NCBI GenBank assembly: GCA_027627685.1
Contig: CP091241.1
Span: 1,985,191-2,049,190, forward strand
DNA from: Hyphomonadaceae bacterium ML37
Lineage (GTDB): Bacteria > Pseudomonadota > Alphaproteobacteria > Caulobacterales > Maricaulaceae
DNA: 64,000 nt
Reading direction: 5' to 3'
Part shown: positions 20,595 through 26,189 of the stretch, piece after piece
Numbering within the stretch: the stretch's first letter is position 1
Layout of the letters: every line of letters starts with the position of its first letter
Program-made: the position numbers and the translations under genes
The notes under the pieces: model-generated
What the model saw: the letters and a program-made list of their open reading frames with translations, nothing else
Told to the model about the DNA's origin: nothing
The model's database searches: none

Positions 20595-21008
20595 CTATTC
20601 GCCCGGTTTCCACGGTTCATAATCGGAGGAGGTTTCCTGGCGCAGGCGCCGCGACCCGAAGCTTAGCGATCCGGCCGGGCGGTAGGCGCGCAGCGTGCCG
20701 GTATGGTTAGGCTCGTGATCGAGTTCCCATGGACGGCGCGCCATCGTCTCTTCGGTCGGGGCGTCATCAAACGTGTGGTGCAGCCAGCCATGCCAGTCGG
20801 ACGGCACGCGCGACGCGTCGGCATAGCCCTTGTACACGACCCAGCGGCGCGTCTTGCCGTCGGCGCCGGTGCCGGCCTTGCGCTCCTGAAAATAGCGATT
20901 GCCGAACTGGTCTTCGCCCACCAGCTCGCCCGAACGCCAGATGGTCCAGGCCGCGCCAGCCGACGCGCCATTCCACCAGGTGAAAATCTTGGACAGGAAA
21001 CCGAGCAT
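20595..21008 (-). CDS. NADH:ubiquinone oxidoreductase accessory subunit, NDUFA12 family
   Basis: 137-residue homologue of mitochondrial complex I subunit NDUFA12 (B17.2), an accessory subunit kept in alphaproteobacteria. The start at ATG 21008 gives MLGFLSKIFTWWNGASAGAA. Diagnostic segments: GELVGEDQFGNRYFQERKAG, RRWVVYKGYADASRVPSDWH, GWLHHTFDDAPTEE and a terminal YEPWKP. It lies about 40 bp upstream of the DUF2155 gene on the same strand, the standard order in this class. Confidence 0.93.
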   Translation of the reverse strand: MLGFLSKIFTWWNGASAGAAWTIWRSGELVGEDQFGNRYFQERKAGTGADGKTRRWVVYKGYADASRVPSDWHGWLHHTFDDAPTEETMARRPWELDHEPNHTGTLRAYRPAGSLSFGSRRLRQETSSDYEPWKPGE

Positions 21009-21233
21009 GGGCCGTTCCTCATCAATCCGTATGAGCCCCGTATATGCCCCCGCCCGGCCCGCCGGTCCAGTGGCGGGGGGCAGCATAGCTGACGCCCGGT
21101 GGATGCCCTCGCTGGCGAACCGGGAGGCTCAATTCTACGTCGCGAACCACGGTTGCAAGTCAAATCGCTGCTGCTATTTGTAAATGGTAAAATATTCAAG
21201 ATTGCGCTATATTTTTATGTCGATGGAGGTCTC

Positions 21234-23222
21234 ATGCGTAAAATGCGACCGAACGCCACCATTACATTTGGTATATTTTGCTTGTCATGCGTACTTTGCG
21301 GGCTGGTCGCATGGAGTGTGTACAGAGGCTCGGATTTCCAGTTCCATCCGGAGCCCGGCCTGGAGCGCTATGCGGTGATCGCCGTGGCGGCTCACTATCG
21401 CAGACTGCCATCGCGGCCTGACTACATCCCGCACGCCAGAGCCATGGCGCGTTACGCCGAAGAGTCGGGCTACGCTCTGGTAGGCGGCGGGGTCATGATC
21501 GATCAAACCGGCCATGAACTTCGGCAGGCCATTGATGTGCTGGGAAGGCTCACCGAGGACGGCGCCGAGGCGCTGGTGTATTTCGCCGGCCATGCAGTCC
21601 CCGGCAATGACACGATTTTCCTGTTGGGCGCCGACGCCGCGCCCCTGCCCATGGCCCGCTTCGCCGAAGGCGGCATCCGCGTCAAGGATATCTGGAGCCA
21701 TCCTTTGGGCTCGGGCCCGTCCCGGACCACGATCCTGATTGAAACCCGAGGCATGGGCGGCCTGTTCAGCGGCGGCATGACCAGCTACGGCACCGGTCTG
21801 GACACGCTGGAGCCGCCTGTAGGGGTCACCCTTGCAATCAGCGACCGGGACGGGCCGGTCACGGTGGATACACGGGCGCTGCGCCTCACGCGGCCGGACC
21901 GGCGAAGCCTGATCCCGGACATGCTCAGCCCGGCCGCCGGCCACTCAATTGTCTTCACCCCGACCCTCATTGAGCTTGACGCTCTGAACAGTCCTGACCT
22001 GCTAATCAGCCTGGCGGACGTCTGCCTGACGGTACACGAAAGATCATCAAGCCAGATCAACCCGCTAGTGCTTGGCCGGTCGGTCGTGGCCGCGGTCCGT
22101 CCCGGGCTTCAGCTCCCCCTCCCGCCGGCCGCCGTGGACGAGGACGCTGGCGGCACTGCGGTTGATAGCGAGGCGGCTGATCCCGCCCCGGACGTCCCGC
22201 CCCCGGACGTCTTGCCGGAGGACGCCGTGACGCAAGACCTCATCGCCGTTCCCGTCCCACCCGTTCCGGCGCCCATACCGGCGCCAGGACCCAGCCGCGC
22301 GGGGCAGTCGGTCATCGAGCTGATCCAGATGTTCGAGGCGTTCCGGGCCGAAACCTATCTCGACCAGGCCGGCATCAGGACCATCGGATATGGCCATACC
22401 GGGCGCGAGGCCCGCGCCGCCAATGTGATCAGCCATGAGCGCGCAGTGGAATTGCTCATGGAGGATATCGACATCGCCGCGCGGGCGGTCAGCACAGCGG
22501 TCTCGCGCGATCTGACTGACAATCAACGCAACGCCCTGATTTCGCTGACGTTCAATATCGGCGCCGAGGCCTTCGGCAATTCCACTCTGGTGCGCCTGAT
22601 CAATAGCGATATTGAATCGGTGAGCGCCGCCGAATTCCTGCGCTGGGTGCATGCGCGCGTGCCCGGCGTCGGCATGCGCGCGCTCCGGGGTCTGGAAAGC
22701 CGGCGCCAGCTGGAGGCGTTTCTGTTTCTCGTCCAGGATGACGGCGTGGATGCGCTGGGTCTGATCCTGAGCTTTGAGCCTTTCCGGCCCAGCGCCACAC
22801 GGGTCAATGACTGTTCAATGATCGGCTATGGCCGCGCCCTGGCGCCCTGCACACAGACGTTCGACGTCCAGATCAGCCAGATCGAGGCGCTTCAATATCT
22901 GCAGCGCGAAGCCGGCATGATCGAAAGCGAGATCCGCGCGCTGGTGGTCGTGCCCGTCTCGGACGGGCAGATGGCGGCGCTGATTTCCTTCGTCCATCAG
23001 AACGGGCTGGAGGCGCTGGCGCGGTCGCGCGTCCTGTCCCGCCTCAATCAGGGCGACCATACCGGCGCCGCCAATGCCCTGCGCCTGCACAATGCATTCG
23101 TCGGCGGTCCAGCCATGCAGGTCGGCGCCAGCCATATTGAGCGGCGCGCAGCCGAGGCGGCGCTGTTTTTCGCTCATGGCGGCGACTATGTCGTCAGCCG
23201 GCCGGACGGCGGCGCCTCATGA
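21234..23222 (+). CDS. Membrane-anchored pseudo-caspase fused to two lysozyme-like (GH24) modules
   Basis: 662 residues from ATG 21234 (GGAGG upstream). Order: short basic N-terminus; one membrane helix (about 11-29), so the bulk is probably periplasmic; caspase-like domain about 44-270; acidic Pro/Ala linker about 293-355; GH24 module about 358-498; second related module about 506-648. The caspase part has the histidine motif LVYFAGHAV (His120) followed by NDTIFLLGADAA, but the strand that should carry catalytic Cys reads TTILIETRG (around 166-173), with Thr where C56 proteases have DACR. Module 1 keeps the phage-lysozyme triad with exact spacing: Glu368, Asp377, Thr383 (FEAFRAETYLDQAGIRTIGY). 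Module 2 keeps Glu515 but has Met529 in place of Thr. The upstream region is AT-rich (20 of 60 GC at 21181-21240). Next gene overlaps by 4 bp. Function unknown; module 1 should cleave peptidoglycan. Confidence 0.85.
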   Translation: MRKMRPNATITFGIFCLSCVLCGLVAWSVYRGSDFQFHPEPGLERYAVIAVAAHYRRLPSRPDYIPHARAMARYAEESGYALVGGGVMIDQTGHELRQAIDVLGRLTEDGAEALVYFAGHAVPGNDTIFLLGADAAPLPMARFAEGGIRVKDIWSHPLGSGPSRTTILIETRGMGGLFSGGMTSYGTGLDTLEPPVGVTLAISDRDGPVTVDTRALRLTRPDRRSLIPDMLSPAAGHSIVFTPTLIELDALNSPDLLISLADVCLTVHERSSSQINPLVLGRSVVAAVRPGLQLPLPPAAVDEDAGGTAVDSEAADPAPDVPPPDVLPEDAVTQDLIAVPVPPVPAPIPAPGPSRAGQSVIELIQMFEAFRAETYLDQAGIRTIGYGHTGREARAANVISHERAVELLMEDIDIAARAVSTAVSRDLTDNQRNALISLTFNIGAEAFGNSTLVRLINSDIESVSAAEFLRWVHARVPGVGMRALRGLESRRQLEAFLFLVQDDGVDALGLILSFEPFRPSATRVNDCSMIGYGRALAPCTQTFDVQISQIEALQYLQREAGMIESEIRALVVVPVSDGQMAALISFVHQNGLEALARSRVLSRLNQGDHTGAANALRLHNAFVGGPAMQVGASHIERRAAEAALFFAHGGDYVVSRPDGGAS

Positions 23223-23542
23223 TCAAGTTCGCGGCCCCCCTTGCGGCGATCATGCTCGCCGCGGCGATCTTCATCCTTGATGGCTGGACACCTGCAGGGT
23301 TCGCCCACGGGCTTTTGTACGTGTTTCCCGTCATGTTGTTGCGCCACCAGCCGGCCGCCATCCAGGCCGCCATGGCGATGGTGGCCGTTGCCTTGATTGT
23401 GGCGGGTTATTTCACCTCGCCCGCAGGATCTCTCGACGCCTATATCCTGCTCAATCGAAGCCTGCCGGTTGTTGTGGTGGCGGTGATCGCGATCCTGCAG
23501 TTGCGGGTCCGCGCGGGCGGCCTGCGCTCCGGCGCCCCTTAG
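23219..23542 (+). CDS. Small multi-pass membrane protein, sensor-domain-like
   Basis: 107 residues, starting inside the stop of the pseudo-caspase/lysozyme gene (ATGA overlap), so translation is coupled. Three to four hydrophobic helices: AAPLAAIMLAAAIFILDG, FAHGLLYVFPVMLL, MAMVAVALIVAGYF and LPVVVVAVIAILQL; basic C-terminus. The pattern GLLYVFPVMLL ... SPAGSLDAYILLNRSLPVV resembles the membrane input domain of many alphaproteobacterial histidine kinases, but no kinase follows. A small membrane protein coupled to a lysozyme also resembles the holin-endolysin arrangement of phages, though the lysozyme here is itself membrane-anchored. Exact role unknown. Confidence 0.75.
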   Translation: MIKFAAPLAAIMLAAAIFILDGWTPAGFAHGLLYVFPVMLLRHQPAAIQAAMAMVAVALIVAGYFTSPAGSLDAYILLNRSLPVVVVAVIAILQLRVRAGGLRSGAP

Positions 23543-23639
23543 GTCCGCGCAGCGCCGTTCAGGATTCGCGCAAAACCGCCGGGCTCCGGTACGATAGCGG
23601 TGATTCGCGCGCTCGCGCGTTCGCCTGCAAGGAGCCGCC

Positions 23640-26189
23640 ATGACCGTCACTGCGCGCCTGACCCTGGCCGAGGCCGGACACGCGTTTGAGAGCCGCCCGC
23701 TCCTGGCGGCGGATCCGGACGCGCTGGACGCGCCCGCCGACGCCGCGCTGCGCGCCCCCGCCAGCTGGAGCCCGCGCGCCTGCGCCGCCTTCGCCGCGCT
23801 GACCGGCGCCGGGTTTGACGCCAACATGGACGCAGAAAGCCTGATCAATGAGCTGGCCGCCCGGCTCGCCGGCGCGTTCTCCAAGGCTGACGCAAGGCTC
23901 GCCCAGGCCGAGATCACCGCCTCGCTGCTGGCGCGCGAAGCCTGCCCGGCGCCAGCGCTGTGGCGCGGCGAAGGCCTGGAGACGCCCGCGGCGCCACTGG
24001 CCGCCCGCGCGGAAGACCTGTCCTCTGTCCTCCACGATCTCAACGCCGCCGCTATGGGCCAGGCCGCCGCTGATGTGGGCGCGCGGGTGCTGGCCGAGCG
24101 GCTGGAAGCCGTGGCGCTGGCGTGCGTGAACTGCACCGGCGCGGAAGCCGAGTGTTTCGACCCGCGCCACAACCGGGCGCTGGCGCGCGCCGTGCGCGCC
24201 GCCCGGCGCGACGGAGCGCCGGATACGATGATCGAGCGGGCCATCGCCCGCGCCCGCCAGGGCGTCACCACGCCAGAGGCGGGCTTGAACACGGCCGCGC
24301 CGGTTTTCACCCCGTCCCCGGTGCGTCTGGACACGAGCTTCTTTGACCTGGCCGATGCTGACGGCGCGCTTCAGACCGGCGAGCCGGCGCGCAAACTCGC
24401 CGGTCAATTGGCTGAAGCCCTGTGGACACATGGCCTGCCTGTGCTTCATTTCACCGGCGCGGCGCCGGCTCCTGCCCCCGCCATCACGCTGGAGCTGACG
24501 CGTTTCGTCACCGGCGATGGCGTTGACTTTTCAGCCTTGTCCGCCGCCGCCAGCCTGTGGGGCGCCATTGCGGAAGCTGCCGGCGGATCCCTCGCCCTGT
24601 CCGGTCTGGGCGCGGCGCTGTGCGCAAAGGGCCTCGCCTATGACAGCGACGCCGCCCGCGACGCCGCCGCCGGGCTCATCGACGCCGCGTCGGCCAGCCC
24701 GGCGCCTTTGTCGCTTGCCCGCCCGGACGCCCTGTCCCTGACCTTCCTGGGATCGGAATCCATTGGCGTGCACCCGCCCGCCGCGCTGGATTCAGCCGAC
24801 GGGCAAGGCTTTGCCGCCTGTATCGACAGCGCGCTGTCGGACCTGCCCGAAGACATCCGCGCGCAGGTGCTTGCCCATGCCCTGGGCGCCCGCTCTCTCA
24901 CCGGTCACAAGGCCGACTGGCTCGACGCCTTGCGCCGGCAGGGCGTGGACGACGGCGCCTTTGCCCGCATCAATGCGGCGCTGGCCGACGGCATTCCGCT
25001 GCGCTACGCCATCAATCGCTGGAGCCTGGGGCCGGAGATCGCCCAGCGGTGCGGCATCAGCCCGGAACGCTTTGACCGGGCAGGCGGAAAACTGCTGGAG
25101 GCGCTGGGCGTCGACCCGGTCGATATCGCCGCCGCCGAGCGCTATGTGCAGGGCGCGGGGCGTCTCGATGACTGCCCGGCCCTGACGCCGGAGCGCCGCG
25201 CCGTGTTCGCCGACCCGGCGCCGCAGGCGCGCCTGGCCATGGCTGTGGCGGTGGAATCTGTCCTCGGAGCATCCTGCGAACTGGAGATCGCCTTGCCCGG
25301 CGCCGCTGGCATGGACGAGGCCGGCGCCCTGGCCGCCTCGGCGGCGCGCCTCGGCCTGCACGCCATCACCATCCGCCGCGAAGGCGAAGCGCTCTATGAT
25401 CTTCTGAACACGATCGAATTTGACGGCGGCGATTACGGCCCGCGCGATGTGGTCACCGAGGAGCGCATCGTGGAGCGCCTGGTCGAAACCGTCGTCGAGC
25501 GCGCCGCCGCACGGCGCAAACTGCCCGACCGGCGCAAGGGCTATATCCAGAAATCCACCGTGGGCGGCCACAAGGTCTACCTGCACACCGGCGAGTTCGA
25601 TAATGGCGAGCTGGGCGAGATTTTCATCGACATGCACAAGGAAGGCGCCGCCTTCCGCTCGTTGATGAATAATTTCGCCATCGCCATCTCCATCGGCCTG
25701 CAGTACGGCGTGCCGCTGGAGGAGTTTGTGGACGCCTATCTGTTCACCCGCTTCGAGCCGGCGGGACCGGTGGAGGGCAATGATTCCATTACCTTCGCCA
25801 CATCCATCCTGGACTATCTGTTCCGCGAACTGGCGGTGAGCTATCTAGGGCGCGAGGATCTGGCCCAGACCGAAGACCCGCGCGCCGACACGGCCGGGAT
25901 TGGCCGGGGCGTGGCCAGCGAAAAGCTGATCGCCCAGACCGATCCGGCGAGCCTCATCTCGCGCGGCTTCTCACGCGGCCAGCTGCCCGACAATGTGGTG
26001 ATGCTCGCTTCGCGCCCGCGCAAGCCCGCCGGCGAAGCCTCGGCCTCCGGCGCCGCCGCGCCGGCCCGCGCACCCGCGCCGGACTATTACGGGGAGCCCT
26101 GCCCGGAATGCGGTCACTTCACGCTGGTGGAACAGGGCGCCAGCGTCGCCTGCGACGCCTGCGGCTGGTCGGGTCCGCCGCCGGGCTGA
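23640..26189 (+). CDS. Degenerate paralogue of B12-dependent ribonucleotide reductase (TSCPD domain protein)
   Basis: 849 residues. The C-terminal third clearly matches class II reductase NrdJ: AERYVQGAGRLDDCPALTPE, a segment equivalent to the KTINLP region (SCELEIALPGAAGMDEAGAL), then LPDRRKGYIQKSTVGGHKVY, LGEIFIDMHKEGAAFRSLMN and FATSILDYLFRELAVSYLG, and a terminal zinc ribbon (Cys821/824 and Cys838/841). The N-terminal two thirds are Ala-rich and diverged. I find no NxCxE catalytic motif and no other recognisable radical-barrel signature, so reductase activity is unlikely. It may regulate or assemble with true NrdJ (inference). Two GATTC sites lie upstream, and the start has AAGGAG seven bases away. 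It is larger than a simple truncation remnant and stays in frame, which argues for a kept function. Confidence 0.82.
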   Translation: MTVTARLTLAEAGHAFESRPLLAADPDALDAPADAALRAPASWSPRACAAFAALTGAGFDANMDAESLINELAARLAGAFSKADARLAQAEITASLLAREACPAPALWRGEGLETPAAPLAARAEDLSSVLHDLNAAAMGQAAADVGARVLAERLEAVALACVNCTGAEAECFDPRHNRALARAVRAARRDGAPDTMIERAIARARQGVTTPEAGLNTAAPVFTPSPVRLDTSFFDLADADGALQTGEPARKLAGQLAEALWTHGLPVLHFTGAAPAPAPAITLELTRFVTGDGVDFSALSAAASLWGAIAEAAGGSLALSGLGAALCAKGLAYDSDAARDAAAGLIDAASASPAPLSLARPDALSLTFLGSESIGVHPPAALDSADGQGFAACIDSALSDLPEDIRAQVLAHALGARSLTGHKADWLDALRRQGVDDGAFARINAALADGIPLRYAINRWSLGPEIAQRCGISPERFDRAGGKLLEALGVDPVDIAAAERYVQGAGRLDDCPALTPERRAVFADPAPQARLAMAVAVESVLGASCELEIALPGAAGMDEAGALAASAARLGLHAITIRREGEALYDLLNTIEFDGGDYGPRDVVTEERIVERLVETVVERAAARRKLPDRRKGYIQKSTVGGHKVYLHTGEFDNGELGEIFIDMHKEGAAFRSLMNNFAIAISIGLQYGVPLEEFVDAYLFTRFEPAGPVEGNDSITFATSILDYLFRELAVSYLGREDLAQTEDPRADTAGIGRGVASEKLIAQTDPASLISRGFSRGQLPDNVVMLASRPRKPAGEASASGAAAPARAPAPDYYGEPCPECGHFTLVEQGASVACDACGWSGPPPG

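Follow-up and report, generated by a model that had tools for sequence, protein, structure and literature searches.

A caspase-like domain without its catalytic cysteine is joined to a GH24 lysozyme module in a predicted membrane-anchored protein of Maricaulaceae

Bacterial caspase homologues with a broken catalytic dyad, termed pseudo-orthocaspases, and fusions of caspase homologues to amidases have both been published already. Within the Alphaproteobacteria, 561 of the 582 pseudo-orthocaspases belong to the Rhizobiales, and their broken dyads include a His-Ala form (PMC6426788, the part available to us). In that part of the survey their partner domains are other than GH24, and the words lysozyme, muramidase and peptidoglycan are absent from its main text. 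Metacaspases fused to an Amidase_2 domain are represented by four sequences and were taken to strengthen a cell-death role (PMC3501461, likewise the part available). They carry a caspase homologue and a peptidoglycan hydrolase in one chain, like the protein described here, but the hydrolase is an amidase there and a GH24 module here. The word lysozyme is absent from the available part of PMC4933709. A preliminary description of the present locus had stated that no system with this architecture was known. For a pseudo-caspase joined to a lysozyme this is what we found in the open-licence PMC literature, where nothing else pertinent was present among the matches listed, but the statement has to be qualified by the metacaspase/amidase fusions already in print.

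Related bacteria have a GH24 protein, SpmX, that is reportedly a non-lytic scaffold derived from a detoxified phage lysin. As our protein is predicted to do, it places a GH24 module in the envelope of Caulobacter-like bacteria; it differs in having no caspase domain and in carrying its GH24 module N-terminally and its hydrophobic segments C-terminally, as read from the SpmX-like gene of the same genome. That gene lies on contig 1 (1.318 Mb) at L032:3658-5190, scores 109 bits against the SpmX model, encodes C-terminal hydrophobic segments and lacks the catalytic Asp and Thr. GH24 endolysins of phages, among them those of Sodalis phage phiSG1 and the APSE phages, have a catalytic module up to 46% identical to the first GH24 module of our protein, whereas the caspase part of our protein has no match in phage records. 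A phage origin of the caspase part was also considered and rejected, since viral contigs, too, yielded 32 pattern-matching stretches of which none encoded a relative.

The protein is encoded within a 64,000-nucleotide stretch of DNA from Hyphomonadaceae bacterium ML37 (here called the window) by an uninterrupted open frame of 662 aa at 21234-23222 (+), with GGAGG four bases 5' of the ATG. The features of the locus are the following.

21234..23222, + strand: pseudo-caspase/GH24 coding sequence, 662 aa (open frame; orthologues; dN/dS < 1)
21255..21323, + strand: predicted N-terminal membrane helix, about residues 8-30 (hydropathy; no lipobox)
21363..22103, + strand: caspase p20-like domain without catalytic Cys, about residues 44-290 (hhalign; PDB profile search; Foldseek on a poor model)
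21591..21593, + strand: His120, position of the caspase catalytic His (invariant in 27 of 27 aligned rows)
21747..21749, + strand: Arg172, equivalent of the lost catalytic Cys (52-residue spacing as in G111; ungapped alignment)
22308..22739, + strand: GH24 module 1 with intact Glu368/Asp377/Thr383 (PF00959; PDB relatives; triad invariant in six of six orthologues and in G695)
22752..23174, + strand: GH24 module 2, degenerate (GH24 profile match; residues read)
23219..23542, + strand: 107-aa protein with three or four hydrophobic segments, likely partner gene (ATGA overlap; adjacency in relatives)

The helix (about residues 8-30) is followed by the caspase-like domain (about 44-290), a Pro-rich linker (about 291-355) and two GH24 modules, GH24-1 (359-502) and GH24-2 (507-647). 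The preliminary description had recognized the first module and missed the second, degenerate one. The membrane-anchored layout that it proposed agrees with hydropathy, the best 19-residue window of the protein being residues 8-26 (score 2.24), and the three basic residues that precede the helix suggest that the protein is oriented with its N terminus inside and its C terminus in the periplasm. The intergenic stretch 5' of the gene (21087-21233) has a GC content of 0.50, compared with 0.676 for the window. A search of 20600-23700 for a sigma-70-like site found none.

The architecture recurs in 13 proteins that we read, seven of one type (A) and six of another (B). Type A comprises the proteins of the window genome, G006, G009, G013, G110 and G231, together with that of G695, a genome of another family; a hydrophobic N-terminal segment was present in six of six type A proteins. 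Orthologues of the 662-aa protein in five genomes are 62-70% identical to it, and the whole chain aligns to the G695 protein at 34% identity. Type B, found in G010, G096, G130, G180, G340 and G345, is a longer lipoprotein type of about 930 aa, with a lipobox in all four proteins tested. The four that were scanned have, after the pseudo-caspase, an incomplete GH24-like stretch, then an intact and a degenerate GH24 module, as well as one further, very weak stretch (iE 0.007-0.35). A third type (C) is represented by the 682-aa protein of G111 (L081:1814-3862, −), which has an intact His101/Cys153 dyad and a degenerate GH24 module followed by an intact one, and which is apparently an active caspase/lysozyme.

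Within the family, the pseudo-caspase/GH24 protein was present in 12 of 137 genomes, in 3 of 19 genera, and all 12 proteins were read and contained both parts. In a sample of the class, 9 of 385 genomes matched the domain at E 1e-20; three of these matches were read. Two of the three, in G000 and G695, have the architecture, and the third, in G418, is a true caspase with Sel1 repeats. In the order to which G695 belongs, 1 of 40 genomes had a match. A search with the G111 protein across 299 genomes of the order recovered the full-length chain in G111 only. The distribution of the pseudo-caspase/GH24 architecture is patchy.

The window protein and three close orthologues had no Pfam caspase match up to E 1, and a search of the window genome with PF00656 gave none either. 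The evidence for caspase homology is therefore a stepwise comparison of profiles. A profile of six type A domains aligned with four true caspases over 211 columns (hhalign, probability 98.9, E 1.9e-17), and against the PDB the only credible family for the type A profile was the MALT1 paracaspase (E 6e-4), which the type B profile also matched (E 5e-7). All six type B proteins exceeded the Pfam cut-off for Peptidase_C14 directly (E 8.4e-15 to 1.4e-10), as did the type A protein of G695 (23.9 bits against a cut-off of 21.4; E 3.8e-5), with G110 (21.2 bits) and G231 (18.8 bits), also of type A, falling below it. A tblastn search of plasmids with the caspase-like domain of the window protein returned four records, all annotated as caspase family protein (E 3e-5 to 6e-3). 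The N-terminal domain is thus, by sequence-profile relation, a homologue of the caspase superfamily (Peptidase_C14), as the preliminary description had held.

Structure prediction was of low confidence both for residues 34-300 (pLDDT 39.1) and for the whole protein from four orthologous rows (pLDDT 36.4). In a Foldseek search with the pLDDT 39 model, the best 50 of 869 matches (E 10) were caspase entries and one MALT1, the best having E 4.2e-3 and none reaching 0.001. Given the low confidence of the model, this comparison with caspase folds, a check that the preliminary description had proposed, is weak support.

The window protein has the motif YFAGH at residues 116-120 and ILIETR at 167-172. 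In a 27-row alignment of the caspase domain, built from the family, 13 further loci, G111, G064 and two loci of another search (L065, which has stops in the chosen stretch, and L071-L075 and later matches were excluded), the catalytic His was invariant in all rows. Every one of the 17 rows that belong to neither type A nor type B has the catalytic Cys, and none of the 10 rows of these two types has it. The proteins of G695, G340 and G345, read beyond the alignment, also lack it, so that loss of the Cys with retention of the His and of the GH24 triad holds for all 13 pseudo-caspase/GH24 proteins (seven type A, six type B). The preliminary description was right about this loss but put it one place early, at Thr171. 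In the true caspase of G111, 52 residues separate His101 from Cys153, and the same distance reaches Arg172 in the window protein; because of this spacing, and because the alignment needs no gap, we place the lost Cys at Arg172. The residue there is R, R, R, Q, E and E in the six orthologues and K in G695. Thr171 falls at the position of Ala in DACR and is, with His120, invariant in seven of seven type A proteins; type B carries Asp-Arg-Thr in this region.

Across the ten proteins listed for types A and B, the caspase-like domain has no conserved Cys elsewhere, and Cys264, the only other Cys in that of the window protein, is not conserved. The supposition that homologues would have no intact Cys at another position therefore stands for these ten, but the distant G111 protein has an intact His/Cys pair. 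The window protein combines a p20 domain with an incomplete His-Cys dyad, the mark of a pseudo-orthocaspase; of the two catalytic residues of a caspase-type peptidase, it has the His and lacks the Cys. It shares its p20-like domain and broken dyad with the published pseudo-orthocaspases, whose His-Ala form likewise keeps the His, and differs from the dyads common in the Rhizobiales (YS, YA, FS, QC and HA) in pairing the His with Arg, Gln, Glu, Lys or Thr (PMC6426788, the part available to us).

The sole Pfam match of the window protein is PF00959 (Phage_lysozyme), in two stretches (E 1.9e-50; 170.8 bits against a cut-off of 22.3). The triad Glu368/Asp377/Thr383, which the preliminary description had listed, is present in GH24-1 with E-x8-D-x5-T spacing and is invariant in six of six orthologues and also in G695. 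The closest PDB relatives of GH24-1 are endolysins and lysozymes, and the BaGTA endolysin BgtA model (NF058676) scored 140.4 bits on the window protein, below its cut-off of 315. GH24-2 was recognized with a GH24 profile built in this analysis (iE 2.7e-26); it retains Glu515 and lacks the catalytic Asp and Thr. Its residues Cys527 and Cys539 (22812-22850), kept in six of six type A orthologues of the family and absent in G695, perhaps form a disulfide. The two cysteines flank the site at which the catalytic hairpin has been lost. All three types carry degenerate GH24 modules next to the intact one.

Across five pairs of orthologues, dN/dS was 0.14-0.32 for the pseudo-caspase domain, 0.03-0.14 for GH24-1, 0.08-0.20 for GH24-2 and 0.24-0.68 for the linker. 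The dS of the folded parts was 0.34-1.14, and the short membrane part was saturated in three of the five pairs. All three folded domains had dN/dS below 1 in every pair, and they are kept by purifying selection. This constraint, with the 34% identity to the G695 protein over the whole chain, makes the architecture more than a chance fusion. GH24-1 had a lower dN/dS than GH24-2 in only three of the five pairs, and low dN/dS is no proof of catalysis, because constraint on the degenerate module is about as strong as on the intact one.

A single origin of the three types was considered with trees of the GH24 and caspase parts. The GH24 tree was built from 26 segments, from 23 of the 30 loci of one search and 3 of the 30 loci of the G111-protein search, with L001-L005 (the family itself), L006 and L027 (internal stops) and module stretches under 40 bits excluded. 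The active modules of types A and B formed one clade (95/98), inside a 20-row set that also contained, without a settled position, the active module of G111. On a very long branch, the degenerate module of G111 joined its type A counterparts (95/87). Only 22% of the bootstrap trees of the caspase domain placed types A and B in one group; long branches come together in this tree, and a clade made up of A, B and G111 was not rejected (p-AU 0.379).

The gene for the 107-aa membrane protein starts within the stop of the pseudo-caspase/GH24 gene (ATGA). Of 61 related genomes, four carry it, exactly those with a type A gene, and it is adjacent each time; in G110 and G231 a gene of this kind again lies directly downstream, and the other neighbours differ. 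A small membrane-protein gene is thus found directly 3' of the type A gene in all six type A genomes of the family and in six of seven type A genomes overall, none being seen beside the G695 gene. The partner gene was not found in the type B genomes G010 and G096 or in G111, and matches in G130 and G180 were weak and elsewhere in the genome (E 0.99 and 0.15). The 107-aa protein has no convincing family match. A resemblance to the membrane domain of a sensor kinase was considered and rejected, having found no support in Pfam, PHROGs or plasmids.

Type B genes are coupled differently, overlapping by four bases a gene for a periplasmic-binding-protein-like protein at all six loci (L078:2902-7807, L031:4178-9080, L079, L080, L134 and L135), where for G010, G340 and G345 the start of the binding-protein gene was taken inside the listed open reading frame. 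SBP_bac_3 was found by Pfam in four of these six neighbours. Within the stretches read, a second binding-protein gene comes next at every locus except that of G130, five of six in all; it is partly cut in G340 and G345. Pfam identifies a cNMP-binding/patatin gene upstream in G096, and upstream genes read in G010, G180 and G130 are similar to it. In the window, the scanned neighbours are NDUFA12, DUF2155 and a TSCPD protein (Pfam), and there is no phage protein among the four neighbours scanned. The TSCPD protein (23640-26189, +; 849 aa) has the C-terminal TSCPD as its only Pfam domain over the cut-off and a sub-threshold TACO1/YebC stretch; at a guess, it may be a strongly diverged relative of ribonucleotide reductase.

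The sequences display the architecture, the cysteine loss, the retained triad, the selection and the gene coupling. Relatives in a few Alphaproteobacteria have kept this design, which suggests that a dead protease controls or aims a wall-cutting enzyme. We give about an even chance to an anchored periplasmic muramidase steered by a noncatalytic caspase-fold module. The 662-aa protein would be exported and held in the inner membrane as a periplasmic peptidoglycan muramidase, with GH24-1, to judge from its intact triad, cutting glycan strands. The caspase-fold domain, its proteolysis lost, would be a regulatory or recruiting module that binds a partner or ligand and so places or gates the muramidase; the preliminary description had seen in the dead fold a possible sensor or latch that would keep the lysozyme inactive in the periplasm until triggered. 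The degenerate GH24-2, perhaps held by a disulfide, may help to hold the glycan or the fold, and the 107-aa coupled membrane protein is a probable envelope partner. The likely task would be local, controlled remodelling of the wall, and not suicide of the cell, in a small number of Maricaulaceae and in scattered relatives.

The alternative that the protein is a nonenzymatic envelope scaffold like SpmX, its caspase-like and GH24 folds serving as binding modules that mark a place on the wall, is possible though not probable. It fits the presence, in all three types, of degenerate GH24 modules that sit beside an intact one and are as constrained. Among NCBIfam models, SpmX is the best match of the only other GH24 gene that the window genome has at E 0.001, a gene with neither the catalytic Asp nor the Thr, and the G009 pseudo-caspase/GH24 gene is about 9 kb from an SpmX-like gene, both in keeping with a scaffold. 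A pure scaffold would not account for a Glu/Asp/Thr triad intact in all 13 type A and B proteins. The SpmX model (NF051871) gave the window protein 84.6 bits against a cut-off of 700, which says little, because the SpmX-like gene of the same genome fails it too. Caspase homologues take part in bacterial defence, and the protein could instead be a suicide or defence effector, in which a trigger, for example phage infection, frees the lysozyme and the cell lyses. We think this unlikely: PADLOC gave no match for the window protein up to E 10, nor any for the G010 protein, the partner or three neighbours in the window, and, with a few neighbours scanned per locus, those of the window (named above) do not speak for defence. 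On its side are the G111 relative, which matches the PADLOC caspase model (E 1.6e-11) and, below cut-off, the NCBIfam EACC1-associated caspase model, and a TIR-domain gene near the pair in G231. The TIR gene (L077:7237-8109, +; TIR_2 E 1.2e-15; ThsB-like in PADLOC, E 2e-6) lies about 1.7 kb beyond the pseudo-caspase/partner pair, with an acyl-CoA synthetase-like gene of the opposite strand in between.

The consistent pairing with a small membrane gene in the type A genomes of the family could also mean that the protein is an antibacterial wall toxin and the small protein its immunity protein. This is very improbable, given that the small gene was neither found in type B G010 and G096 nor seen beside the G695 gene, that its matches in G130 and G180 are weak and lie elsewhere in the genome, and that the 662-aa protein looks anchored and not released. 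Least credible to us is a caspase-like domain that has kept its protease activity by means of another nucleophile, for instance Thr171. The invariance of His120 and Thr171 in type A would be expected of such an enzyme, but Thr171 occupies the position of the Ala in DACR, the type B sequence there is Asp-Arg-Thr, and no clan CD peptidase is known to us that uses an internal Thr as its nucleophile.

Returning to a muramidase steered by its caspase-fold module, a history can be sketched that we regard as doubtful: a caspase fold would govern a wall hydrolase, G111-like ancestors would have switched their own lysozyme by an active caspase, and in the Maricaulaceae the protease would have died and the switch role stayed, driven by the coupled membrane protein in type A or by periplasmic binding proteins in type B.

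Bacterial pseudo-proteases are mostly without a known output. In the protein described here the likely output is peptidoglycan cleavage, an activity that can readily be assayed. Proteins that keep the caspase dyad and proteins in which it is broken both occur naturally, and the coupled genes supply candidate partners. The role of dead bacterial caspases would thereby become directly testable in aquatic bacteria.
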